Source of the DNA: Mucilaginibacter sp.
Lineage (GTDB): Bacteria; Bacteroidota; Bacteroidia; Sphingobacteriales; Sphingobacteriaceae
DNA: 32,774 nt
Reading direction: 5' to 3'
Assembly: GCA_025929405.1 (NCBI GenBank)
Contig: JAICMD010000005.1
Coordinates: 1 to 32,774 of the forward strand
Shown: positions 11,208 to 32,755 of the stretch, piece by piece
Position numbering within the stretch: the stretch's first letter is position 1
Layout: each line of letters begins with the position of its first letter
The notes under the pieces: model-generated
Told to the model about the DNA's origin: nothing
What the model saw: the letters and a program-made list of their open reading frames with translations, nothing else
The model's database searches: none
Position numbers and translations under genes: made by a program

Positions 11208-13640
11208 TTATTTTATGGTAACAGATAGTGGTATACAGCTCAATCCATCTGCTTCTGCTTTAAGGGTTATAGTTCCTTTTTTATTATTTTTTAATGGGCG
11301 TAGTATCGCCAATGCCACGCCGCGATAAGTTTTACAAACCGGACTGTTCACGCTTTCCATATCGCTGGGATTTGCACTGCCGGAGCCCGCAATCTCACCA
11401 TCGCCTGATACGGATAGTTTAACCGGAGTATCAGCGTCAGGAATAATGTTTCCCCCAGCGTCTGTTATTTCAATTTTAATATACGATAGGTCGTTCCGAT
11501 TGGCTCTTAAATTTGATCTGTCAGGCATCAGCATAATTTTAGCTGGTTTGCCCGTAGTAGTTAATGTTTTTGAAGCTACTTCTTTACCATCTTTTACAGC
11601 AATGGCTTTTAATGTTCCGGCCTGATACGGTACTTTAAAAGTTGCTATAAATTTGGTATCCTCACCTGATTTTCGTTCGTCAATGATTTTCCCGTTCAGT
11701 TCCAAACGGATAAGCGGATACCTTGAAAACACCCGCACATCCATGTTTTTACCATCGCTGCCTGCCCAGTTCCAGCTTGCCCACTCGTTGGGCCATCCCC
11801 ATTGGCTCACTCTTTCCTGCTGGCCTTCCGGTATAGGTGCATGTACAACCATTTCCAAATCACTGTTGCGCCATAGTACATCACGATATAACATCTGTGG
11901 CTTTTTACTGCCTGTAATATCAATATCACCGCAAAAACCATTAAACCACGGCCATGGCCTTAATATTCCTCGTACGGGTTCATTATTTAACCTGCTGTTT
12001 CCCAGTCCTGTCTCGCCAAAATAATCCATGGCAGTCCAAACAAAGTCGCCTATAACCCACGGATCGTTCTCCACCTTCTGCCAATTGTCAAATGCTTCTT
12101 TTGGATATGATTCTGTGCCCATCATTATCCTTTGAGGATATTTTTCATGATCAGACTCATATACTGAGTGCATATAGTTATACCCGCCCACATCAAGCAT
12201 GGCAAAAGCGGGCGCAGTAGTTTCCCATTTATAACCAGGATGATCCCAAAAACTGCAAATAGCTTCAGTTACAGGGCGGGTATTGTCTAAATGTTTTACT
12301 TCGTCAACCAATTGCTTTTCAATAGCTAACCCAAGCGAATCAACCCGTTCGTTTATCTCGTTTCCTATGCTCCAGAAAATAACCGACGGGTGATTTCTAT
12401 CACGATAAATCATTGATTTCAGATCTCTTTGCCACCAATCTTTAAAATATAAATGATAATCTTCCGGGTTTTTTGGGCGTTCCCACATATCAAAGGCTTC
12501 ATCAATTACCAGCATGCCATTACGGTCGCAAGCGTCTAAAAATTGCTTTGAAGGTGGGTTGTGGCTGGTACGTACCGCGTTAAAGCCATTAGCTTTCATT
12601 AATTCTACGCGCCGCTCTTCAGCACGGTCAATAGTGGCGGAGCCTAAAAAACCATTGTCATGATGCAGGCATCCACCTTTTAATAAAACCTTTTTGCCAT
12701 TTAATGTGAAGCCGGTTGTGGCATCAAAATGTATGGTACGGATGCCAAATGGAACTTTAGCGACATCTGTTGTTTTACCATTCACCTGTATGCTTACTTC
12801 TGCCGTATAAAGGTTGGGTTTATCAACCGACCAAACTTTTGGTTGGTTAACGATCAAAGCTTGAGCAATATCAGTAACAGCTGATTGTGCATTTTTTTCG
12901 GCAGCTTTACTAACTTGTGCAATTTTACCATCTGGCCCGATAAGTTTTATTGCTAATCGCACATTAGCTTTACCGGCACCCTCAACACTTGCAACTATTT
13001 TAATAGTAGCTTTATTAGCCGATAAGCCTCCTGTTGTAATGGAAATACCATTTTGTGCAATGTGTGCAGCCTGTTTCCTGATAAGCCAAACATGCCTGTA
13101 AATACCCGAACCACTATACCAACGCGAATTCCGTCCGTCGTTTTGTACTTTTACAGCTATTACATTGGGCTGCCCGGCAGGTTTTAAGGCGTTGCTGATG
13201 TCCACATCAAACGCGGTATAACCGTAAGGGTGTTTAGCTAATAACTTGCCGTTTACCCACACCTCGCTATTCATGTAAACGCCATCAAAATTTATTACCG
13301 ATTGGCTATAACGCTCGCCGGGTTTTAAAGCAAAGGTTTTGCGGTACCAGCCCGTGCCTCCTAAAGTATAGCCGGTGGCGGTATTCCCTGGACTATCTTT
13401 TGAAAAAGGGCCAACTACGTTTCCTGGTGATTGGTTAGGCAGCTTTTCGATACTCCAGTCATGAGGCAGATCTACTGTCCTCCAGGATTTATCATCGAAA
13501 TTAATATTTTGGGCGCCGGATATATCCCCTTTATGGAATTTCCAATTATCGTCAAAAAGTGATTCTGAGCGTGTATTTTGAGCATAAACCATCCCACTTG
13601 TTAAGCATGCAGCTAACGCCAGCGCCAAAAAATATTTCAT
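11208..13640 (-). CDS. Exported GH2 beta-galactosidase-like enzyme
   Basis: Secreted or periplasmic retaining exo-glycosidase. A Sec signal peptide spans residues 1-20 (MKYFLALALAACLTSGMVYA|QN). A GH2 sugar-binding domain follows (GTGWYRKTF, NSEVWVNGKLLAKHPYGYTAF, about 95-150), then an Ig-like domain and the barrel. Catalytic acid/base is Glu428 in FWSIGNEIN and nucleophile is Glu510 in IMMGTESYP. The region after 600 resembles the DUF4982 and Ig-like C-terminal domains of Bacteroides GH2 beta-galactosidases such as the xyloglucan enzymes. Family assignment is firm; beta-galactosidase is the best guess among GH2 activities. It is first in the run GH2-GH13-GH31 and has its own promoter-like sequence. 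Confidence 0.88.
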   Translation of the reverse strand: MKYFLALALAACLTSGMVYAQNTRSESLFDDNWKFHKGDISGAQNINFDDKSWRTVDLPHDWSIEKLPNQSPGNVVGPFSKDSPGNTATGYTLGGTGWYRKTFALKPGERYSQSVINFDGVYMNSEVWVNGKLLAKHPYGYTAFDVDISNALKPAGQPNVIAVKVQNDGRNSRWYSGSGIYRHVWLIRKQAAHIAQNGISITTGGLSANKATIKIVASVEGAGKANVRLAIKLIGPDGKIAQVSKAAEKNAQSAVTDIAQALIVNQPKVWSVDKPNLYTAEVSIQVNGKTTDVAKVPFGIRTIHFDATTGFTLNGKKVLLKGGCLHHDNGFLGSATIDRAEERRVELMKANGFNAVRTSHNPPSKQFLDACDRNGMLVIDEAFDMWERPKNPEDYHLYFKDWWQRDLKSMIYRDRNHPSVIFWSIGNEINERVDSLGLAIEKQLVDEVKHLDNTRPVTEAICSFWDHPGYKWETTAPAFAMLDVGGYNYMHSVYESDHEKYPQRIMMGTESYPKEAFDNWQKVENDPWVIGDFVWTAMDYFGETGLGNSRLNNEPVRGILRPWPWFNGFCGDIDITGSKKPQMLYRDVLWRNSDLEMVVHAPIPEGQQERVSQWGWPNEWASWNWAGSDGKNMDVRVFSRYPLIRLELNGKIIDERKSGEDTKFIATFKVPYQAGTLKAIAVKDGKEVASKTLTTTGKPAKIMLMPDRSNLRANRNDLSYIKIEITDAGGNIIPDADTPVKLSVSGDGEIAGSGSANPSDMESVNSPVCKTYRGVALAILRPLKNNKKGTITLKAEADGLSCIPLSVTIK

Positions 13641-21196: not shown

Positions 21197-22255
21197 TTAT
21201 TCATTTGTTATTTTTAATAATACCATCTCGCTCGAAAAGCCAGGCCCCATGGCCATCATCAGGCCGTAGCCGTCTTCGAAGCCTTCGCTCATAAAACGTT
21301 CAAGCACATATAAAACTGTTGCGCTTGACATATTGCCGTAACCATTCATTACCTCGCGTGTGTGGTGTAAAAAATCGCCCTCAATACCTAATGCATCAGT
21401 ATAAGCATCTAATACTTTTTTGCCGCCGGGATGGAATACAAAGTTTTTAATATCGCTCAATTGCAAATTATGTTTCATTAAAAACTCTGTTATATCATCA
21501 CGTACATGCTCATGTATAAATGTGGGTATATCTTTTGAAAACAATACCTTAAAGCCGGTATCTTTAAACTCCCAGCCCATTACGTCCAGCGAATCGTAAT
21601 ACAACTTGCTGCTTGATGCAATGTAGGTTACCCGCTTATCCCTGCCATGATTATCGCCTTTAACAATGCAGGCTGCAATACCGTCAGAAAATAAGCTCGA
21701 ACCGATAAAATTACTTTTGCTGTAATCGCTTTTTATAAGGGTTAATGAACATAGTTCAACTGCAATAAGTAAAACAACGGCATTGGGGTTTGCCATTGCT
21801 GCGGTATTAGCTTTAGCCATGCCTGATACGCCGCCACCACAACCTAAGCCCCAAATTGGTGTACGGTTTATATTAGGGTTAAGCCGTATTTTGTTAATTA
21901 TTAGCGCATCCATGCTGGGTGTGGCCAGTCCGGTGGTTGATACAAAAAATATATCGGTAATGTCTTCCTTATTAATACCGGCTTTGTTAATACAATCTTC
22001 TGCTGCCTGCACCGAGTAATTCAAGGATATATTTAAATAAGCATCATTCCGTTCCTCAAATGTATTAGGTTGGGCATAGTAGGATAGGGGTTTGCAAAAA
22101 TTGCGTGTATTGATCTCGGTATTATCAAAGGCAAATATTAAACGATCTGTTTGAGGGAAATTAGCCGAAAATAATTCATGAGCTTGTTGTTTTACGGCTT
22201 GCTGATCTGTTTTAAAAGGAAGATCGACCTTTGAAACTGCTGCTATAAATGGCAT
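21197..22255 (-). CDS. Type III polyketide synthase (chalcone/stilbene synthase-like)
   Basis: Homodimeric ketosynthase that extends an acyl-CoA starter with malonyl-CoA and cyclises the chain to pyrones or resorcinols, without an acyl carrier protein. The full Cys-His-Asn triad is seen: Cys139 in WGLGCGGGVSGMA, His275 in NFVFHPGGKK and Asn308 in GYGNMSSATVLYVLE. The family ending MAMGPGFSSEMVLLK is present. The ORF-track start at 22417 is rejected because the ATG at 22255 gives MPFIAAVSKVDLP, the usual opening, and 352 residues, the usual length. The first 54 residues of the longer ORF also overlap the GH115 terminator. It stands alone, without a tailoring gene beside it. The nearest candidate is the ICMT-like methyltransferase at 1327. 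The product is not predictable; alkylpyrones or alkylresorcinols are likely. Confidence 0.93.
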   Translation of the reverse strand: MPFIAAVSKVDLPFKTDQQAVKQQAHELFSANFPQTDRLIFAFDNTEINTRNFCKPLSYYAQPNTFEERNDAYLNISLNYSVQAAEDCINKAGINKEDITDIFFVSTTGLATPSMDALIINKIRLNPNINRTPIWGLGCGGGVSGMAKANTAAMANPNAVVLLIAVELCSLTLIKSDYSKSNFIGSSLFSDGIAACIVKGDNHGRDKRVTYIASSSKLYYDSLDVMGWEFKDTGFKVLFSKDIPTFIHEHVRDDITEFLMKHNLQLSDIKNFVFHPGGKKVLDAYTDALGIEGDFLHHTREVMNGYGNMSSATVLYVLERFMSEGFEDGYGLMMAMGPGFSSEMVLLKITNE

Positions 22256-22364
22256 GTAGTATTTACGTTTGTTTGGATTTATTAGTTGCTTGGGGTTATA
22301 TAATATAAAGGAGTAAGGTAGACAATTGTTTAACAGGTTACATAATAATACATCAAGCAGTAAA

Positions 22365-22390
22365 TAAAAAGGCCACCCAACCGGGCGGCC
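22365..22390 (-). terminator. GH115 rho-independent terminator
   Basis: On the reverse strand GGCCGCCC-GGTT-GGGTGGCC forms an 8-bp stem with one G-U pair and is followed by UUUUUA. It lies 33 bases past the GH115 stop codon and ahead of the polyketide synthase gene, so the two are separate units. Confidence 0.8.
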
Positions 22391-22422
22391 CTCAAACAAA
22401 TCAAACTTATATAACAATTATT

Positions 22423-25400
22423 TTATTTTTTTGCAGATGCAATAACTCTATAGCTTTCAGGCGGACCTAAATAGCTTGATTTAACACCGCCGCGGTCAAG
22501 CACTATTTTTTCAAGCACCACGGCAGGGTCAACCATCCAGTATTTAATAATATGTTTACCCGGTTTGCTGATATAATGATCTGAACTTAAAACTTTGATC
22601 AAATTGGCCGAGTTTCCTTCCATTACCGAGTTGGCTCTTTGCGGATTAGTGATCAGCGGATCGATATTAACTTTTACGGGCGCTTCGTTATCAATTGATA
22701 TGGCATACCATAAGCCTTTCTCGTGCGTAAAATCAATTGAAGGTGCGGTATAAACCAATAGTTTTATTTTACCGGTATCGGCTACGTTTACTTCATATTC
22801 AATATGCGGGGTATTACCACCGGGGTTGTCAATACGCGGATGGGTGATAGGCGAACCTTCAATACCCGATAAGGTACGGCCATAATCAGGAAGTATGTTC
22901 CATTTTGCATCGGTGCCATCAACAATTTTGCTATAATGTATGGCTTCCATTGATGCGTAACCATTGCTTTCAACAAAACCCGATGTTGGTACAGGTTTGC
23001 TGTTATTTACCACAGCCTGTACCGTTACTGTACTGCCATTAGGACCGGTTATGGTAATAGGTACGTGTTTAACGCCTTTAGGCGCTTTTGTCCAGTCAAC
23101 ATTAACCCATACGCGCTGTTGTTTATCAATTGTGCCACCGGCAGGACTTACCTGTACCCATGGCTCGTTTGATTTAACTGTATATGTAAATGACGCTTTG
23201 CCGCGGTTAAATACTTCAAAGTAATGACCAACACGCGGATATTGGGTCAGCTCAGGTAATACAGCGGCTGTTGTAGCTTTTGGCCAATAATCTGCCGAGC
23301 CTTCAACCGATACACCCATTTCAGGGCCATCCGCCGGTGTTACTTTTACAAATGCGGGTAATTTATTGCCCCCTCTTATATCCCAGCTTGTATAACCAAT
23401 ATGCGGCTGATCCATCATGTGGCTCCATTTGCCGTTGGCCAGCGTATCATTAAAATATTTTCCTATACGTGCATCTTCAGCAAATAATTTATCAGCTTTT
23501 GCAGCTTCATCATCAGCAGCGGTGCGTCCCTGATTGCCATATAATTTTTGTTTGGCAGATGCCAGATACATTTCATTAAACACTGCACTTGCTACTACCG
23601 GATGATATACCAACTGATAAAAAGCATCATGATAAGCGGCAGGTATTTTTTTGCTTAAAGCGATGGTTTGGGCTTTAAGTTTATTATAATCTGCAACTAC
23701 AGTTTCAAATTCTCGGTAATCGGTTAAGCTATACGGTGTACTGGTGCGTATAGTGGTAGGGTCAACCATTTCGGGCTTACGTCTGCCGTTATATTTGCCG
23801 TATTGTGCTATTATCTGTGCTATTTCTGTAGCATGCTCGGGGCCAAATTGTTTGGCCGCCCATTTACGGGTATATTCCTGTAGGCTGTTTGCCGGATATT
23901 TATCAGGGTTCCAGGCGTAATCTAAGAAGAAACTTATCGGAAACTCGTATGGTTTTAAATCGCCAACGTTTACAACCCATTCCTTTCGCACGCCATACTC
24001 ATAGGCCAGGTGCATTTGCTCCCAAATATGCGGTAGCGGATTGGTGTTAACCCATTGGTAATTACGTGGGCCACCATGATAATCAAAGTGATAATAAATA
24101 CCGTATCCGCCTTTATTGTGTTCTGTTAGTAAAGGCAGCCTCCTTACGTTTCCCCAATTATCATCGCAATATAAAAGGGTAACATCTTCGGGTACACGCA
24201 TTCCTGCATCGTAATAATCCTGTACTTCTTTATATAATGCCCATACCTGCGGGGTTTTGCTGGCATCCTGATGTTTTACGTCGGCTATTATTTGGCGTTG
24301 TGTTTTAATAATATTTTCAAGCAAGGTCATGTTAGCAGCAGGGCCGCCGGGTGCCATAGGCGAGTCGCCGTCGCCGCGCATGCCTATTGTGGTTAATGCT
24401 TCTTTGTCGCCTTCGCGTTCAACACTCTTTCTCCAAAAATCTTTTAACAAATCGGGATGTGTAGCAAAATTCCACGCCTGCGATTGTTCCTGTCTGTTCA
24501 ATGTAGGGTTAAAGCGCCCCCATTCCTGTTGGGCACGATACAGCGGCTCGTGGTGTGATGTACCCATAATAATACCCATTTTATCAGCCAGGATAGGATT
24601 GTCCGGGTCGTCATCATTAAAAGCATTGCTCCACATGGCCGGCCATAAAAAGTTAGCTTTTAACCTGAGTAACAGTTCAAACATGTGCTCGTACAAATAA
24701 TGGTTAACGCCTTTGTCCATTATTTTTCCATTTAGCAATGACGGTTTTTTATTTAAGCCATCAAATTTAGCTTTGGCCCAACCGGTAAAGCCCGGCGACT
24801 CGTCATTAATAAATATACCGCGGTATTGTACTGCCGGTTCGCCATCAGTATGGCGGGTAGTAAATACGTATAAGTTACTTTTATGAATGATAGGTACATC
24901 CGCCCAATAGTACCATGGCGATACGCCAATTTCTGCCGACAGATCATAAATGCCATAAATGGTGCCGCGTTTGTTGCTGCCTGCAATTACAAAGGCAGTT
25001 TCAACGCCGGGCAGCGGGTTTTTAACAATCTGCGAAATATACATTTCGTTTTTACCGGCTAAATCGGTAAGGTTTACTTTTTTATTTTTTACCAGATTAT
25101 CAATCAGTGGGCTTTTACCTAAGGTGCCAATAATTACTACCTGTTTGCCTTTTACATCGCCGGTTGATAGAGTAGGCTCGGCATTAGTAACCGCTTTAAT
25201 ATCTGTTTGCAGATTTTTAGCGGCCATCAGCACGCCTTCATAATCGGCATTGCTTACATAAATAGGTGCCGATTTTCCTGCTGCTGACAATGTGAGCGCT
25301 CCCGGTACTTTTTTGGTATAAACATAAGGTGTATCGCCTGCATATACATTGCTTACGATCAACAATGTAAAGGTTAATAAAAATAACGCTGCGTAAACCT

Positions 25401-25452
25401 GAGTAGTAATTGGCCTGGCTTTATTGCCTTGCCGGGTAATACGTACTTTCAT
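22423..25452 (-). CDS. GH115 xylan alpha-1,2-glucuronidase
   Basis: Large exported enzyme that removes (4-O-methyl-)D-glucuronic acid side chains from glucuronoxylan and its oligosaccharides. The N-terminal signal region is about residues 1-38 (hydrophobic stretch AALFLLTFTLLIVSNVYA after a basic extension). Family blocks are strong: QYRGIFINDESPGFTGWAK (about 209-227), LRLKANFLWPAMWSNAFNDDDPDN (about 262-285), IIMGTSHHEPLYRAQQEW (about 294-311) and YYHFDYHGGPRNYQW (about 453-467). The C-terminal part from about residue 780 is beta-rich, like the GH115 C-terminal domain. At 1009 residues it is slightly long. It is divergent from susC; the 726-bp gap holds two groups of palindromic operators, and the proximal one (25546-25561) is about 95 bp upstream of this start. 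Activity is inferred from the family. Confidence 0.92.
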   Translation of the reverse strand: MKVRITRQGNKARPITTQVYAALFLLTFTLLIVSNVYAGDTPYVYTKKVPGALTLSAAGKSAPIYVSNADYEGVLMAAKNLQTDIKAVTNAEPTLSTGDVKGKQVVIIGTLGKSPLIDNLVKNKKVNLTDLAGKNEMYISQIVKNPLPGVETAFVIAGSNKRGTIYGIYDLSAEIGVSPWYYWADVPIIHKSNLYVFTTRHTDGEPAVQYRGIFINDESPGFTGWAKAKFDGLNKKPSLLNGKIMDKGVNHYLYEHMFELLLRLKANFLWPAMWSNAFNDDDPDNPILADKMGIIMGTSHHEPLYRAQQEWGRFNPTLNRQEQSQAWNFATHPDLLKDFWRKSVEREGDKEALTTIGMRGDGDSPMAPGGPAANMTLLENIIKTQRQIIADVKHQDASKTPQVWALYKEVQDYYDAGMRVPEDVTLLYCDDNWGNVRRLPLLTEHNKGGYGIYYHFDYHGGPRNYQWVNTNPLPHIWEQMHLAYEYGVRKEWVVNVGDLKPYEFPISFFLDYAWNPDKYPANSLQEYTRKWAAKQFGPEHATEIAQIIAQYGKYNGRRKPEMVDPTTIRTSTPYSLTDYREFETVVADYNKLKAQTIALSKKIPAAYHDAFYQLVYHPVVASAVFNEMYLASAKQKLYGNQGRTAADDEAAKADKLFAEDARIGKYFNDTLANGKWSHMMDQPHIGYTSWDIRGGNKLPAFVKVTPADGPEMGVSVEGSADYWPKATTAAVLPELTQYPRVGHYFEVFNRGKASFTYTVKSNEPWVQVSPAGGTIDKQQRVWVNVDWTKAPKGVKHVPITITGPNGSTVTVQAVVNNSKPVPTSGFVESNGYASMEAIHYSKIVDGTDAKWNILPDYGRTLSGIEGSPITHPRIDNPGGNTPHIEYEVNVADTGKIKLLVYTAPSIDFTHEKGLWYAISIDNEAPVKVNIDPLITNPQRANSVMEGNSANLIKVLSSDHYISKPGKHIIKYWMVDPAVVLEKIVLDRGGVKSSYLGPPESYRVIASAKK

Positions 25453-25545
25453 GAATTTTATTTTTAATTGGTTAGTGCTTGTTGGGGTTTTAAGAGTTTA
25501 AAAAATCAATTACCAAACTCTTTAAACAATAGCCTGCTAAGGTTA

Positions 25546-25561
25546 TTGCAATCGATTGCAA
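25546..25561. promoter_or_regulatory. LacI-type operator TTGCAATCGATTGCAA near GH115
   Basis: A perfect 16-bp palindrome with the central AATCGATT, matching the AAnCGnTT core of LacI/GalR-family operators. It lies about 95 bp upstream of the GH115 start. The same core occurs before susC and uxuA. The regulator is not in the window. Confidence 0.7.
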
Positions 25562-25803
25562 ATATAAATTTAAATAAAAGCCATTTTGCTACAAATAGGT
25601 TGTTTAACAACTATTTTACAATTGAAACTGATGTTTATTTTTATAAAAAATGATTAATTTTTGTAAAAAAGTGTTTTTAGTTATTTCTGATTAAATCGTT
25701 CAAATCATTATTTAATTTTTAACAAATTATTAAATTTATTAAAATATTTTCAAGATAATTTGAGTTTATTGTAATCAACTGACTGGGTTAATTACCATAT
25801 TGG

Positions 25804-25830
25804 TGCAATCGATTACGGTAATCGATTGCA
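25804..25830. promoter_or_regulatory. Double operator: overlapping TGCAATCGATTAC / GTAATCGATTGCA sites
   Basis: Thirteen-base arms, exact reverse complements, flank a single G. Each arm is itself a near-complete LacI-type site with core AATCGATT (centres 25810.5 and 25823.5, 13 bp apart). The right arm overlaps the susC -33 box. Confidence 0.72.
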
Positions 25831-25855
25831 ATTTTAATTTTTCTTTATACTTTTA
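25826..25855 (+). promoter_or_regulatory. susC promoter (TTG-N19-TACTTTTA) overlapping operator
   Basis: TTG (25826-25828) lies in the operator half-site GATTGCA and is followed after 19 bases by TACTTTTA (25848-25855), one base off the -7 consensus. Transcription would start near 25862, giving a leader of about 317 bases. Overlap with the operator suggests repression by blocking polymerase. Confidence 0.55.
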
Positions 25856-26057
25856 TCTCTTGTAACCCAATTATTACACACCTTTCATAGTTGTTATTTT
25901 TAAAGAGACAGATTTATATAGGTCAGCATTATATGCGTCATTTTTGACAAATATTTTATGAGCAGTTATAAGAACTTAATCAATTTTTATTTTTACAATT
26001 AAATCAATTTATAAAGTATGGGAAAAAAAGTCCTTTAATTTAAAATCTGCCAGGGCG

Positions 26058-26098
26058 CTTTATGCAGTGACCCGAACGGATGTTTGTCAGACATAAGG
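26058..26098 (+). other. Stem-loop in the susC 5' leader
   Basis: CTTTATG...CATAAGG (7 bp with one G-U pair) enclose an inner TGAC/GTCA stem, separated by a 3x2 internal loop, in a locally GC-rich stretch of an otherwise AT-rich leader. It lies 81 bases before the susC ATG. The function is unknown; it could be an RNA control element. Confidence 0.35.
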
Positions 26099-26178
26099 TA
26101 AACACCGTAAATACATTTAAATACACTTTAAATATATTTCTAAACATGCAAAAACAAAATCAATCAATTAATTAAATT

Positions 26179-29100
26179 ATGGAAAAACTTAGACTTATCA
26201 AATGCTGGAAGACTTTGCTTTTACTATTTAGTATAAGCATGATTTCAGGAACTATTTTTGCCCAAACTGTTACACTGCACGGCCGTGTAACCGACCAAAA
26301 GGGTGAAGCCTTAATAGGGGCGACTGTGAGAGTTGCCGGTAGCAGCAATGGGGGTACAAATACCGACATTAGCGGTAACTTTACTTTGCGTACAGGTGCT
26401 GATACAAAATCATTAACCATATCTTATGTAGGTTATGTATCACAAAGTGTAGCTGTAAAGCCTGGTACTACTAATTTAGGTAACATTATATTGGCTAACG
26501 ATGCTAATAGCTTAAATGAGGTGGTAGTTGTTGGTTACGGTACGCAACAAAAGCGTGATATAACAGGTGCTACTTCTTCAATTGACAATAAAACCTTGTC
26601 TGAAACACCAACACCGAACTTTGTTGATCAGTTAAAAGGTAAATTAGCCGGTGTTGATATCACAAGCAGCACAACCAGGCCGGGTAGCGCGCCTCAGATA
26701 CACATCAGGGGTAACCGTACCATTGGTGCGAGGCAAGATCAATCGCCCGACCAACCTTTATTGGTAGTTGATGGTATACCATATACCGGTAGCATTACGG
26801 ATATTAATCCGGATAATATCAAAAACATTGAGATATTAAAAGATGCATCTTCAACAGCTATTTACGGTTCAAGAGGCGCTAACGGTGTGTTACTGATTAC
26901 AACTAACAGGGGTACAGCCGGAAGATCTGTGACCAGCTTTAGCCAAACTTTAGGTATTAGAAATGCAGAAAGCGAACTAAAAGTATATGACGGCCCGGGT
27001 TATGCACAATTAAATGCTGACGCGTTAGCAGGTTCAGTTTTGCAAGGAAATGGTGCCTCTGCATCTTACCCTTTATCAACGCTTGAAAAACAAGGCCTTG
27101 CAAATGGTGTAAATACTGACTGGCAGAAATATACTTACCAAACAGGTATCAGTTCTGATAGCCATTTAAATGTTTCGGGCGGTACTGAAAGTACTACCTT
27201 TAATATAGGCGCAGGTTATAATGCCGTTACTGAACCTACTCCACTGAACCGTTATGAAAGATACAGCCTTCAGGCTTCAATTGAACATAAGATAAGCAGG
27301 ACCATTCGTGTTGGAGCCAGTATTACTAATACTTTAACTTATACTAACACTCCGGGTGGATTCCCTTCAGGCGCTGCAGCTTCAATGACCCCATTGGTAA
27401 CTCCTTTTGACGAAAATGGTAATTTACGCTTATTCCCTTATATTGGCGCATTTGATGCAAGTACTTTAACACCATTGTATTGGAAGTATAATGCAACCGG
27501 CCTTAATAACACCAGGAATTTCCATGACTTTACTACTTTGTTTGCCGAGTGGAAGCCTGTTAAAAACTTAACCTACCGAGTTAACTTTGGTTATGATTTT
27601 ACTCAAAGTTTCCAAAGTCAATACAGTAGCGGAAGCATCGACGTAACAGGTGCTATTAATACGGCATCATCAAGTGCAAGTTCTAATAACTCTGATGGAT
27701 ATCATTATACATTAGATAACTTGTTGACTTATGATAATACATTTGCTCAAAAACATCACCTTACCGTTACAGCGTTATTTGGTACTGAAAAAAATCATAC
27801 CCAAAATACTAACGTAGGTGCACAAAATTTACCTGCTGACGTTGTTCAAAACTCAAACCTTAATTTGGGTACCTTCAGCAGCTTTAGCGGTGGCTGGAAC
27901 GAGTTAGGTATCATTTCAGAAATGGCGCGTGTAAACTATTCATACAACGGCCTTTATGCCTTAACAGCTACTATCAGAAATGACGGTAACTCTACTTTGG
28001 CGCCAGGTCATCAATGGCTTACTTACCCCGCGCTTGGCTTGGCATGGAATATCTCAAATGAAAAGTTCATGCAGCAGTTTAGCTGGATAGATAACTTGAA
28101 ATTAAGAGGCGGTTATGGCATTTCATCAGCAGGTGCGTTAGCCGGTAACCCATACCAAACCTTGGCTAATTTAGGTATCGGCCAGTTCCAATTTGGTGGA
28201 GGCGCTGCTGGTAACGTACTTACGGTATCAAACACTAAGGTTCCTAACCCAAATCTGCAATGGCAAAAAACGGCTGAGCTAAGCATAGGTTTAGATTTTG
28301 CTATACTTAAAAACAGGCTATCAGGCTCAATTGATGTTTACTCGCAAAAAACTACAGGTATATTATTAAATAATACCAGTATAGCGAGTGCCGGTGGCGC
28401 AAGTCAGCAAACTAACCTGGGCACATCAGCAACCAAGGGCCTTGAAATTGCTTTAAGCAGTATTAACGTACAAAGCAAAGGCTTTACCTGGGCAACAGAT
28501 TTTAACATTGCCTTTAGCCGCGACAAAATTGTTGCTTTGCCAAGCGGACTACCGTATGATATAGGTAACGGATTTTTCGTTGGTTATCCATTGAACGTTG
28601 TATATGATGTTAGAAAAATTGGTATCTGGCAAATATCTGATTCGCCTGGCCCAAGCACAACAGTAGCAGGCGCTTACCAAAAAGTTCCTCAAAATGGCGT
28701 TACCGAATATCCTGGCCAAATACGTGTGCAGGATGTTAACGGCGATGGTAGTATAACCAATGCCGACCAACAAATATTAGGTAGCTTTACACCTCAATAT
28801 ACCGGCGGTATTACTAACAGGTTCACTTACAAAAATTTTGACTTTTCATTCAGCATAAATGCACGTATGGGCGGTTTGGTTTTAGTAAATTATTTAACCA
28901 GTGGTGGTTCAGCAGGTGGTTGGGGTTTCTTAGGTACAGCTCGCCACAACCAACCGGTTGTTGATTACTGGACACCTACGCATACTACAGGTACTTTCCC
29001 AATGCCTAATATGAACTTGCAAACCTATCCATTCTCATCAACTACCGGATACTACAATGGTTCATGGATCAAATTGCGTACTATTAACTTAGGTTATAAC

Positions 29101-29361
29101 ATTCCGTCAAAATTGGTTTCGCGCATTGGTATAAGTTCATTAAGGGTATTTGTACAATGCTTAAACCCATGGATCATATACAATCCTGCAGGCAAAGCAA
29201 CCAACGGAACTATATTTGATCCGGAAACAAATGCTGGAATTAATAATCAGGTTAGCGGACAATTTAATAACAACCCAACCGGCAATCGCGTAAATACTGT
29301 TACTTATGGTCAAGTTCCTTACACCAGAGATTTTGTATTTGGTCTTAATGTTAGATTCTAA
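26179..29361 (+). CDS. SusC/RagA-family TonB-dependent outer-membrane transporter
   Basis: Outer-membrane transporter that imports oligosaccharides using TonB energy, with the next gene's SusD lipoprotein as its lid. Signal peptide about 1-29 (ending GTIFAQ), then a carboxypeptidase-D-regulatory-like beta-sandwich (about 31-110, VTLHGRVTDQKGEALIGATV). A TonB box/plug start follows (NEVVVVGYGTQQKRDITGATSS, about 113-134), then the plug signature ILKDASSTAIYGSRGANGVLLITT and a 22-strand-type barrel ending FGLNVRF. At 1060 residues it is normal. There is no N-terminal STN domain, so control by an anti-sigma partner is unlikely, which fits operator-based control. The substrate is inferred to be glucuronoxylan fragments from the divergent GH115. 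SusD follows after 14 bp. Confidence 0.95.
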   Translation: MEKLRLIKCWKTLLLLFSISMISGTIFAQTVTLHGRVTDQKGEALIGATVRVAGSSNGGTNTDISGNFTLRTGADTKSLTISYVGYVSQSVAVKPGTTNLGNIILANDANSLNEVVVVGYGTQQKRDITGATSSIDNKTLSETPTPNFVDQLKGKLAGVDITSSTTRPGSAPQIHIRGNRTIGARQDQSPDQPLLVVDGIPYTGSITDINPDNIKNIEILKDASSTAIYGSRGANGVLLITTNRGTAGRSVTSFSQTLGIRNAESELKVYDGPGYAQLNADALAGSVLQGNGASASYPLSTLEKQGLANGVNTDWQKYTYQTGISSDSHLNVSGGTESTTFNIGAGYNAVTEPTPLNRYERYSLQASIEHKISRTIRVGASITNTLTYTNTPGGFPSGAAASMTPLVTPFDENGNLRLFPYIGAFDASTLTPLYWKYNATGLNNTRNFHDFTTLFAEWKPVKNLTYRVNFGYDFTQSFQSQYSSGSIDVTGAINTASSSASSNNSDGYHYTLDNLLTYDNTFAQKHHLTVTALFGTEKNHTQNTNVGAQNLPADVVQNSNLNLGTFSSFSGGWNELGIISEMARVNYSYNGLYALTATIRNDGNSTLAPGHQWLTYPALGLAWNISNEKFMQQFSWIDNLKLRGGYGISSAGALAGNPYQTLANLGIGQFQFGGGAAGNVLTVSNTKVPNPNLQWQKTAELSIGLDFAILKNRLSGSIDVYSQKTTGILLNNTSIASAGGASQQTNLGTSATKGLEIALSSINVQSKGFTWATDFNIAFSRDKIVALPSGLPYDIGNGFFVGYPLNVVYDVRKIGIWQISDSPGPSTTVAGAYQKVPQNGVTEYPGQIRVQDVNGDGSITNADQQILGSFTPQYTGGITNRFTYKNFDFSFSINARMGGLVLVNYLTSGGSAGGWGFLGTARHNQPVVDYWTPTHTTGTFPMPNMNLQTYPFSSTTGYYNGSWIKLRTINLGYNIPSKLVSRIGISSLRVFVQCLNPWIIYNPAGKATNGTIFDPETNAGINNQVSGQFNNNPTGNRVNTVTYGQVPYTRDFVFGLNVRF

Positions 29362-29375
29362 TAAAATATTTAATC

Positions 29376-31313
29376 ATGAAAATAGTTAAAAATATCTCAA
29401 TCATTACAGCTGCGGTACTGGCTATAACTGTATCGAGTTGTAAAAAGCTTTTGGAAGAACATCCCAAAAACGGTTTGTATCTTGATTATTTACAAACTGA
29501 GGCGGGCATTAAAGCAGCCATAGCAAATTCTTACAATAATTTAAGAGGCTTTTATGAGGGTGACGGAAACAACGCTCTTGTTAACGATGGAACAGATGAG
29601 TGGTTTAATGGTGGATCATCTACGGCTTCCCAGTATGGTACCTATAATATCAACCCATCAAACGGACCGGGTTTTACAGCTGAATACCAACAGATAAATA
29701 CCATGAACGGCTTGATGGATTTTATAAATGCATCAACAACAATTAGTGCTGCCAATAAAAAACTTTATTTGGGCGAGGCACAGTTTTTACGTGGATTTTA
29801 TTACTTCTATTTAGTACAAACGTTTGGTGGTGCAACCGCATCAGATCCAGCAGGTATACCATTGCATACCACTTTTATTTCAGAGCCTGTTTATCAGGAT
29901 GCACCTGCAAAATTAACTGATATCTATAATTTGATCATCAGCGATTTTACTAATGCTGCTACAAACTTACCAAATACAATAGCCAGTGGTAATCCTTTCT
30001 CGGCCAATGGTGTTGGTAAAACTGCTACCGCTGCTGTTGCAAATACTATGCTTGCTAAGGCATATTTAACACGTGGTTATACCTCAGCCGGCAGTACTGC
30101 TGATTTTCAAAAAGCTGCAGACCTTACTGCTGCAATTATTGCTAATAAAGCTACTTATGGCCTTGACTTATGGCAAGACTATAACGACGTTTATAAACAA
30201 GCTAATGATTACGGTAAAGAAAACATGTTGATGTTTGACGTAGGTTCTGACCCGGTTTATAGCGGCTATTGCTGCAATAATGGTAGGGGTAACAACAATA
30301 TGGCTGTGCTTTATCGTTGGTCATACAACCTTGCAGCCGTAAACAATGTTGCTGGTAATGATGCGCCAAATCAAAAGCAAGGCGGCCCTAACCCAATGGT
30401 ACGCGACGTTTATAACGGCCGTTCTTATGTACGTGACGCCTTTAACCGTCCATACTTAAATGATGTTGCCTTTGCCGATCAGGTGCATGATACACGTTAT
30501 GATGCATCTTTCCAAACATTTTGGATTTGTGACCAGGCTGCTGCCGATGGTACCAAGTTTGATGGTAAAACTTTAAAAGGCGATGGACTACCGTTTAAGG
30601 TTGCTTCAAACGTATCATTCGTATCATACCAGCCACCGGTTGATGGTGATACTGCTATATTAATGCCGGGTGTTCCGGTTGATAATACCCGTCGTGATAA
30701 TTTTAAAGGTTTAATTATTACTCCGGTACAGTATAACAACAACCAATATCCTGCTATTAAAAAATGGGATGATATAACCAGGATTGCAACTAATGACTTG
30801 TCTTCAAGGCCACTGATGTATATGAGGTTTGCTGAAGTTTACATGCTTAATGCTGAGGCTAACTATATGTTAGGTAAAGTAGGCTTAGCTGCACAGTCAT
30901 TAAACGTTATCAGAACCAGGGCTGCCTACAGGACACCTGCTGATGGTGACCGTATTCCTAAATCACAATTTAGGGTTACTGCTGCTTCACAAGCTGCTGA
31001 TAATGCTGCTAATGCTGCTGCAATGCAGTTAACTACAGCGCAATTAGCCCAGTTAGCTATACCAAACAACACTACAGTTGGTTCTCCAGCTTGCGGTATG
31101 GATTTGATTTTGGACGAATACACCCGCGAGTTTTGTAGCGAGCCACGCAGATGGTATGACCTTGTGCGTACCGGCCAGTTACTAAGAAGGGTTACAAAGT
31201 ATAATGCTGAAGCAGCTGCTAATATAAAAGCTTACCACACTGTAAGGCCTATACCTCAGGGAGAATTAGACAAAAATACAGGTCCAAAATACCCTCAACA
31301 CCCAGGCTATTAA
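29376..31313 (+). CDS. SusD/RagB-family surface glycan-binding lipoprotein
   Basis: Cell-surface lipoprotein that binds glycans and caps the SusC channel. The lipoprotein signal is MKIVKNISIITAAVLAITVSSC, with the lipidated Cys at residue 22. The SusD N-terminal region (EEHPKNGLYLDYLQTEAGIKAAIANSYNNLRG), the TPR-like helices (KLYLGEAQFLRGFYYFYLVQTFGG; ANTMLAKAYLTRGY) and the C-terminal family signature (LILDEYTREFCSEPRRWYDLVRTGQL, about 580-606) are all present. At 645 residues it is somewhat longer than the usual 500-600, with an extended middle region (about 280-420). It is co-transcribed with susC and ends at a strong terminator. Ligand inferred from GH115. Confidence 0.94.
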   Translation: MKIVKNISIITAAVLAITVSSCKKLLEEHPKNGLYLDYLQTEAGIKAAIANSYNNLRGFYEGDGNNALVNDGTDEWFNGGSSTASQYGTYNINPSNGPGFTAEYQQINTMNGLMDFINASTTISAANKKLYLGEAQFLRGFYYFYLVQTFGGATASDPAGIPLHTTFISEPVYQDAPAKLTDIYNLIISDFTNAATNLPNTIASGNPFSANGVGKTATAAVANTMLAKAYLTRGYTSAGSTADFQKAADLTAAIIANKATYGLDLWQDYNDVYKQANDYGKENMLMFDVGSDPVYSGYCCNNGRGNNNMAVLYRWSYNLAAVNNVAGNDAPNQKQGGPNPMVRDVYNGRSYVRDAFNRPYLNDVAFADQVHDTRYDASFQTFWICDQAAADGTKFDGKTLKGDGLPFKVASNVSFVSYQPPVDGDTAILMPGVPVDNTRRDNFKGLIITPVQYNNNQYPAIKKWDDITRIATNDLSSRPLMYMRFAEVYMLNAEANYMLGKVGLAAQSLNVIRTRAAYRTPADGDRIPKSQFRVTAASQAADNAANAAAMQLTTAQLAQLAIPNNTTVGSPACGMDLILDEYTREFCSEPRRWYDLVRTGQLLRRVTKYNAEAAANIKAYHTVRPIPQGELDKNTGPKYPQHPGY

Positions 31314-31345
31314 TAATAGCAATTTAGTTTAATTTGAATATAGTG

Positions 31346-31380
31346 AAAAAGCGCCCCGATTTATCGGGGTGCTTTTTTTT
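31346..31380 (+). terminator. susCD terminator
   Basis: AGCGCCCCGA-TTTA-TCGGGGTGCT forms a 10-bp stem with one G-U pair, preceded by A's and followed by eight T's. It begins 33 bases past the susD stop. Confidence 0.88.
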
Positions 31381-31415
31381 ATGCCCGTTGGGTAAATAAA
31401 TAAATTTTAAAGCAA

Positions 31416-31439
31416 TAAAAAAGGCCCCGAAAGGCCTTT
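31416..31439 (-). terminator. uxuA terminator
   Basis: On the reverse strand AAAGGCC-TTTCGG-GGCCTTT forms a 7-bp stem followed by a U-run (forward A-run 31416-31422). It lies 30 bases past the uxuA stop and faces the susCD terminator. Confidence 0.82.
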
Positions 31440-31468
31440 GAATTATTTGTTAAGTGGAGGAGGGATAA

Positions 31469-32662
31469 CTATTGAAACAGGGTTCTTTTTACGCCCATCT
31501 CCAATCCACGCAATTCTGCTAAACCTTTCATGCGCCCAACAGCCGAATAGCCGGGATAGGTGTTGTAGTTATAATCATCCAGCAACTTATGGCCATGATC
31601 GGGGCGCATTGGTATGGCAATATCGTCGCGGCCTGCTTCAAGCCTTTTCTTTTGTTCTAATATTACAGCTTTCATAACGGCGTACATATCTGTAGTACCT
31701 TCCAAATGATTATCTTCATAAAAAGATCCATCAGCCTCGCGCCTTACATTACGCAAGTGTAAAAAGTGCACATGCTGGCCCAAACGATTCATAATGCCCG
31801 GCAAATCATTATCTGCACGGGCACCTAATGAGCCGGTGCAGTAAGTAAGCCCATTGCTTGGCGATGGTGCGGCATCAACAATAAATTTTAGGTCCTCTTC
31901 GGTTGAAACCACGCGTGGTAAACCTAAAATTGCAAACGGTGGATCGTCTGGGTGGATGCACATTTTTACGCCCAGCTTTTCGGCATCGGGTATAATGGCC
32001 TGTAAAAAATAAGCCAGGTTAGCTTTTAAAGCTTTGGCATCAATATTTTCATATTTTTTAAGGTGCTCTTTAAATTCAGCTATGGTATAAACTTCATCAG
32101 TGCCGGGTAACCCTGCCATAATGGTATTTATCAATAATTCTTTTTCTTCGTTACTTATGCTATCTAAATAAGCCTTAGCAGCCTTTTGCTGCTCAGTGGT
32201 AAACTCATTAAAAGCTTCAGGACGCTCTAAAATATACAAATCAAAGGCGTGCAAGGCAGGAGCATGGTAACGTAATGCCGAGGCATTATTGGGCAAACGG
32301 TAATCTAAGGTGGTACGCGTCCAATCTAATACAGGCATAAAATTGTAGCAAACGGTTTTAATGCCTTGTGCCGCTAAATTTTTTAAGGTTTGTATGTAGT
32401 TTGCTATTGCCTCGTCACGGCCTTCACCGGCGGTTTTAATGCTTTCGTGTATGTTTACACTTTCCACTACCGACCATGTAAGCCCGGCAGCCTCAATAAT
32501 ATCTTTACGTTTTTTTATTTCTTCGGTGCTCCATACCACGCCCGAGGGGATATGATGCAATGCGTTAACTACACCGGTTGCTCCGGTTTGTCTTATTGCT
32601 GATAAAGTTACCGCGTCTGACGGGCCAAACCAGCGAAATGTTTGTTCTAAATTACTGATCAT
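31469..32662 (-). CDS. uxuA: D-mannonate dehydratase UxuA
   Basis: Cytoplasmic enzyme converting D-mannonate to 2-keto-3-deoxy-D-gluconate, the third step of glucuronate catabolism. Recognised by the opening LEQTFRWFGPSDAVTLSAIRQTGATGVV, the metal-site blocks MCIHPDDPPFAILGLPR (His237), LTYCTGSLGARADNDLPG, HVHFLHLRNVRRE and the C-terminal PMRPDHGHKLLDD. At 397 residues it is full length (family about 390-400). It is convergent with susD, with paired terminators, and has its own operator-controlled promoter upstream. The pathway partners (UxaC, UxuB, KDG kinase, aldolase) are not in the window and may lie beyond its right edge. The link to GH115, which releases glucuronic acid, is direct biochemically. 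Confidence 0.97.
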   Translation of the reverse strand: MISNLEQTFRWFGPSDAVTLSAIRQTGATGVVNALHHIPSGVVWSTEEIKKRKDIIEAAGLTWSVVESVNIHESIKTAGEGRDEAIANYIQTLKNLAAQGIKTVCYNFMPVLDWTRTTLDYRLPNNASALRYHAPALHAFDLYILERPEAFNEFTTEQQKAAKAYLDSISNEEKELLINTIMAGLPGTDEVYTIAEFKEHLKKYENIDAKALKANLAYFLQAIIPDAEKLGVKMCIHPDDPPFAILGLPRVVSTEEDLKFIVDAAPSPSNGLTYCTGSLGARADNDLPGIMNRLGQHVHFLHLRNVRREADGSFYEDNHLEGTTDMYAVMKAVILEQKKRLEAGRDDIAIPMRPDHGHKLLDDYNYNTYPGYSAVGRMKGLAELRGLEMGVKRTLFQ

Positions 32663-32714
32663 TATAATGCTTATTAGCTTGTGTTATTTTAACTATGCAA
32701 GTTACAATTAATGC

Positions 32715-32744
32715 CCAAAGTATAGATAATGAGATAAATTGTAA
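32715..32744 (-). promoter_or_regulatory. uxuA promoter (TTA-N19-TACTTTGG) overlapping operator
   Basis: On the reverse strand TTA (32744-32742), within operator half-site GATTACA, is followed after 19 bases by TACTTTGG (32722-32715), one base off the -7 consensus. The layout copies the susC promoter. Confidence 0.5.
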
Positions 32745-32755
32745 TCGATTACAAT
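32738..32755. promoter_or_regulatory. LacI-type operator ATTGTAATCGATTACAAT upstream of uxuA
   Basis: A perfect 18-bp palindrome with the same AATCGATT core as the GH115/susC operators, 76 bp upstream of the uxuA start. Shared architecture suggests one regulator for both loci. Confidence 0.72.

Follow-up and report, generated by a model that had tools for sequence, protein, structure and literature searches.

A glucuronoxylan locus of Mucilaginibacter and the predicted LacI-family regulon to which it appears to belong

Glucuronoxylan PULs that combine GH115 with SusCD exist in Bacteroides. Hybrid two-component or ECF-sigma systems usually control them (PMC10766802). UxuR, UxaR and KdgR of Bacteroides thetaiotaomicron are LacI-family proteins with predicted glucuronate/galacturonate regulons (PMC3878776), UxuR2 of Algoriphagus marincola HL-49 (Cytophagales) is a LacI-family regulator of glucuronate and galacturonate loci (PMC5507952), and six LacI orthologous groups have been described for glucuronate or galacturonate (PMC4052901). 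LacI-controlled beta-1,4-xylan systems with TonB-dependent transporters are found in Xanthomonas, for example (cited in PMC12125979). GH115 glucuronidases include candidates from Mucilaginibacter mali, in a paper whose text is without operons or regulation (PMC13059095).

The locus analysed here lies in the window, a stretch of 32,774 bases that forms the entire contig C190 of a Mucilaginibacter sp. assembly. It resembles the Bacteroides glucuronoxylan PULs in its enzyme and importer families, and the M. mali candidates in enzyme family and genus, but differs from the former in that control appears to be of the one-component LacI type, acting via a palindrome common to scattered loci. We put at roughly 85% the probability that the locus belongs to a genome-wide regulon of a LacI-family regulator predicted to bind TGYAATCGATTRCA. 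The Bacteroides UxuR, UxaR and KdgR proteins are likened to this regulator by family and pathway (LacI, hexuronate catabolism, within the Bacteroidota); however, the monosaccharide regulators of Bacteroides mainly serve cytoplasmic enzymes and inner-membrane transporters, with few extracellular genes (PMC3878776), whereas here the operator also stands before debranching enzymes and SusCD pairs. Algoriphagus UxuR2 is likewise a LacI regulator of glucuronate and galacturonate loci, in a Cytophagales genome, but its links are to a TRAP transporter and GH109, in place of the SusCD, MFS permease, GH115, GH67 and CE15 found here. The Xanthomonas system shares LacI control tying xylan import to degradation, but belongs to another phylum. 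No paper on this motif, or on a Mucilaginibacter glucuronoxylan regulon, was found in the open-licence literature.

The sequence-only reading had placed GH115, SusC/SusD and UxuA in the window, and both the open reading frames and the families agree (Table 1). The catalytic and C-terminal domains of GH115 are both full-length by Pfam profiles and PDB match (residues 39–1001; top match 4zmh, E 7.7e-249, then 4c90, “alpha-glucuronidase GH115”), and UxuA matches the mannonate dehydratase 4eac (E 1.2e-143). SusC homologues also adjoin GH115, UxuA or LacI in relatives. The combination by which a glucuronoxylan PUL is recognised, SusC/SusD with xylan-specific enzymes, is found here: the window SusCD pair adjoins GH115, and its operator is common to GH67 and CE15. 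A type III polyketide synthase-like gene (21197–22417), on the same strand as GH115, begins 5 bp past the GH115 stop, and one transcript is possible.

Table 1. Genes and operators of the window (C190) and operator sites on other contigs of the assembly
Feature	Location	Strand	Details
GH115 xylan alpha-1,2-glucuronidase, 1009 aa	22423..25452	-	PF15979 483 bits; PF17829 (GH115_C) 165 bits
SusC-like TonB-dependent receptor, 1060 aa	26179..29361	+	Plug and CarbopepD_reg_2 domains
SusD-like lipoprotein, 645 aa	29376..31313	+	PF07980, PF14322; PDB matches are SusD-family structures
UxuA D-mannonate dehydratase, 397 aa	31469..32662	-	TIGR00695 equivalog 527 bits (cut-off 200)
Operator TGCAATCGATTGCA	25547..25560	.	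exact 14-mer; 95 bp before GH115 ATG; top weight-matrix score (matrix from other species)
Operator TGCAATCGATTACG	25804..25817	.	before susC, first of overlapping pair; 1 outer mismatch; matrix score 17.95
Operator GGTAATCGATTGCA	25817..25830	.	before susC, second of pair; 1 outer mismatch; matrix score 17.21
Operator TGTAATCGATTACA	32740..32753	.	exact 14-mer; 78 bp before uxuA ATG; 21 bp from contig end
Operator site	C57		ahead of GH67
Operator site	C356		ahead of CE15 glucuronoyl esterase (best PDB match 6hsw)
Operator site	C160		ahead of MFS permease; divergently KDPG aldolase and KdgK-like kinase
Operator site	C90 (L017)		ahead of ECF sigma, FecR, SusCD set (L017 6136-13701)
Operator site	C66		ahead of GFO/IDH/MocA oxidoreductase, divergent from GH130
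Operator site	C114		ahead of SDR
Operator site	C249		ahead of two-gene operon without clear role
Operator site GGTAATCGATTGCA	C311		one outer mismatch; ahead of 3-keto-disaccharide hydrolase, divergent from M1 peptidase
Operator site	C103 (L018 6012-6025)		exact; between 3' ends of hypothetical gene and bshB1 (bacillithiol deacetylase)
Operator site	C341 (L022)		between convergent genes

The motif AATCGATT occurs exactly four times in the 32.8 kb (25550, 25807, 25820 and 32743) where 0.62 copies are expected, and none of 100 shuffled windows reaches four. All four copies are intergenic, with one upstream of GH115, two overlapping copies upstream of susC and one upstream of uxuA, and none elsewhere in the window; the claim that each transcription unit is preceded by a palindrome thus holds. 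The two susC operators (25804–25830) overlap by one base, have centres 13 bp apart and lie ~350 bp before the susC ATG, whilst the uxuA operator (32740..32753) occupies the spot of the divergent uxuA–lacI promoter region of relatives. A DNA loop joining the GH115 operator to those of susC was considered and set aside: the spacings are 257 and 270 bp, against 268–301 bp in three relatives, and the helical phase is not constant.

Across the 3.24 Mb assembly (87% complete), the 14-mer TGYAATCGATTRCA is matched exactly at 12 sites, where a first-order Markov model predicts 0.08 and a reversed-pattern control gives none, and every one of the 12 lies outside genes or at a gene start; the core GYAATCGATTRC has 15 copies. 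One-mismatch sites elsewhere in the genome were dropped, being mostly intragenic, with the exception of GGTAATCGATTGCA on C311 and TGAAATCGATTACA on C150. A weight matrix trained solely on sites adjoining LacI starts in other species was applied to a 270 kb subset of the genome in which site-bearing contigs are over-represented, the only part in which weaker sites were scored; its 16 best positions there are the operators of Table 1 and one on C150, and the next score is intragenic. Hits scattered without any connection to hexuronate or xylan genes would have spoken against a shared regulon, but this is not what the genome displays: sites precede GH67, CE15, KDPG aldolase, KdgK, an MFS permease and a second SusCD. 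The hexuronate catabolic genes with a palindromic operator upstream are uxuA, KDPG aldolase and kdgK. Roughly half the sites stand ahead of genes without a clear pathway role (GFO/IDH oxidoreductase, 3-keto-disaccharide hydrolase/M1 peptidase, SDR and hypothetical genes). Through the C90 operator, the LacI regulon would extend to a sigma/anti-sigma system. Close to GH67 lies a gene (L015 3735-4958) that combines HD and PycTM (Pycsar effector-like) domains and is possibly involved in anti-phage defence.

The genes that the sequence-only reading expected behind such sites were recovered in part. GH67 and kdgK were as predicted, but no site with two or fewer mismatches was found at uxaC (C1), at uxaB (tagaturonate reductase; C143), the sole mannitol-dehydrogenase-type and UxuB-like match in the genome, at the GH10 genes (C342 and C33) or at xylA (C336); an endo-xylanase is thus found in neither locus nor regulon. 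uxaC is commonly, though not always, a member of LacI-family hexuronate regulons. Since uxaC, uxaB, GH10 and xylA are without a site, the predicted regulon takes in only part of the xylan pathway: debranching, import and the catabolic steps from mannonate downwards. The SDR gene on C114 was considered as the missing fructuronate reductase, an assignment that is unproven, as the protein is 37% identical to the SDR adjoining lacI in relatives and scores FabG-like.

The assembly contains a single LacI gene, located at 11556–12581 of C133, and thus on another contig than the window. Its product has a lacI HTH and a sugar-binding domain (PF00356 above cut-off, PF13377 107 bits, PF00532 88 bits), a conserved recognition helix and hinge, and orthologues of 57–64% identity in relatives. 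It neighbours a SusCD pair, a dehydratase and a PQQ dehydrogenase, with operator targets not adjacent, and no operator was found ahead of it, the best candidate having four mismatches. As the motif by itself names no regulator, this gene is indicated by the finding of no second LacI in the genome, and is most likely the regulator; another LacI, for example past the right edge of the window, could be missing, given that the assembly is only 87% complete. A LacI- or GntR-family gene had been anticipated beyond that edge. The LacI type fits, with a lacI diverging from uxuA at that spot in 14 relatives; in this assembly the gene found is on C133.

A scan of named genomes covered 80 LacI loci (Mucilaginibacter, Pedobacter, Adhaeribacter, Pontibacter, Chitinophaga, Niastella, Spirosoma and others), with orthologues spanning the Sphingobacteriales, Chitinophagales and Cytophagales. 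LacI often lies within a cluster of GH115, GH67, GH10, CE15, UxuA, SusCD, MFS and SDR genes with the palindrome upstream, and its flanks include UxuA in 41 of the 80 loci, SusC in 42, GH115 in 34, GH10 in 28 and CE15 in 16. The top 10-base palindrome in the intergenic DNA of these loci is CAATCGATTG, with 54 copies (runner-up, 17), and the operator consensus across relatives is TGCAAYCGRTTGCA. The 14-mer occurs near the gene's own start with at most two mismatches in 66/86 LacI orthologues, versus 68/1720 random stretches, and with at most three in 71/86 versus 165/1720, the latter set of LacI-adjacent sites being the basis of the weight matrix. Among leader genes of relatives' loci, 66/141 from the target families have a site, as opposed to 42/345 other genes (Fisher p 1.7e-15, a guide only, given the kinship of the loci and the sites common to divergent genes). 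Sites were found at none of eight CE15 and neither of two GH67 promoters in these loci, where both genes are mostly inside operons. A site ahead of lacI itself, or lacI next to its predicted targets, is seen in most relatives, but not in this genome.

Two further features of the relatives' loci were observed. An SDR gene adjoins lacI in 54/80 loci (e.g. L093:14745-15491), its product resembling an SDR-type D-mannonate oxidoreductase below the cut-off (184 vs 281 bits), and may encode a non-canonical fructuronate reductase; this genome has no orthologue of it. In Chitinophagaceae (L161, L166, L176, L182, L191, L192 and others), tandem LacI duplicates share 46–50% identity with the LacI of this genome, most having their own operator.

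Operators, their positions, target families, and the recurrence of operator, LacI and targets in relatives are read directly from sequence, and together suggest the following mechanism. Without substrate, a LacI dimer would occupy the operators and hold down the debranching enzymes GH115, GH67 and CE15, the importers (two outer-membrane SusCD pairs and the inner-membrane permease) and the lower hexuronate pathway (UxuA, KdgK and KDPG aldolase). Release would be brought about by an intermediate of glucuronate-branch degradation, with fructuronate, mannonate and KDG as possible candidates. By analogy with most LacI relatives, repression lifted by a glucuronate-pathway metabolite is the most likely mode of action, although activation at some promoters is possible, as the operators stand on no consistent side of TAnnTTTG promoter boxes. 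Xylan as the substrate, originally proposed from the window's gene families, is strengthened by GH67 and CE15, which would be co-regulated through the shared operator.

Not every site is readily placed in such a scheme, and two (C103 and C341) are flanked by convergent genes, as might be expected of palindromes that were chance or repeat-derived and without regulatory role. However, 12 sites against 0.08 expected, with controls at zero, already contradict chance, and the position and sequence of the palindrome are conserved across orders, making this explanation exceedingly improbable. The palindrome fits LacI operator architecture, with a central CG (TGNAANCGNTTNCA), and precedes LacI genes in dozens of relatives, which also argues against its use by a global carbon regulator of another family, such as the GntR or Crp type. 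Such a regulator would accommodate the targets that are not glucuronate genes, and Crp-type global control of sugar genes has been predicted in Bacteroides (PMC3878776), but a global regulator should have more than 12 sites, and sites less biased towards one pathway, and we consider this very unlikely.

A closer competitor to the glucuronate-type LacI is a paralogue. The sites could be read mainly by a xylose-type (XylR-like) LacI missing from the assembly, in which case the regulon would answer xylose, or xylose and glucuronate together. A separate LacI clade of 12 members (support 100, 33–36% identity) adjoins xylA, xylulokinase and symporter genes in relatives, and 10 of the 12 have the operator upstream with at most two mismatches. 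Because this clade shares the operator, exact motif and LacI orthologue do not correspond one-to-one among 41 genomes, and genomes without the glucuronate-type LacI carry exact sites too; moreover, the xylB–xylA contig of this genome is 4.4 kb long and ends where xylR would be. Against this, a search of the genome for a XylR-like gene found none, the contig that carries xylA is without a site, the recognition helices differ (aaSSVSRAL in the XylR-like clade versus SxATVSRgL), and the target set centres on glucuronate, with UxuA, KdgK, the aldolase, GH67, GH115 and CE15. The xylose reading is therefore judged unlikely, and the glucuronate-type LacI is preferred.

At the C103 site a promoter was looked for and none was recognised. 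On C341 (L022 3017-3116), the operator is followed by TACATTTG, a -7-like box, and, ~50 nt on, by a strong terminator-like hairpin (z -4.5), possibly a LacI-controlled small RNA of ~70 nt, which we regard as only a lead. The candidate RNA has no significant Rfam family, and conservation beyond the operator was not found in 150 same-genus genomes. A broader scheme, speculative and on balance rather unlikely, would have glucuronate- and xylose-type paralogues reading one palindrome, with full release needing both sugars and the operator perhaps driving the C341 short RNA too; if true, genomes with one paralogue, as apparently here, would run a simplified switch.

LacI glucuronate regulators were already known from Bacteroides and Algoriphagus; the predicted regulon described here is a well-supported addition to them, with an unusual reach to polymer-level genes. 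Xylan control in soil Bacteroidota is generally attributed to hybrid two-component or ECF-sigma systems, and the present analysis proposes a regulator and an operator for glucuronoxylan use in a large group of them, from the Sphingobacteriales, Chitinophagales and Cytophagales. The operator may be used to find more glucuronoxylan genes in these genomes, including several operator-bearing genes of unknown function.
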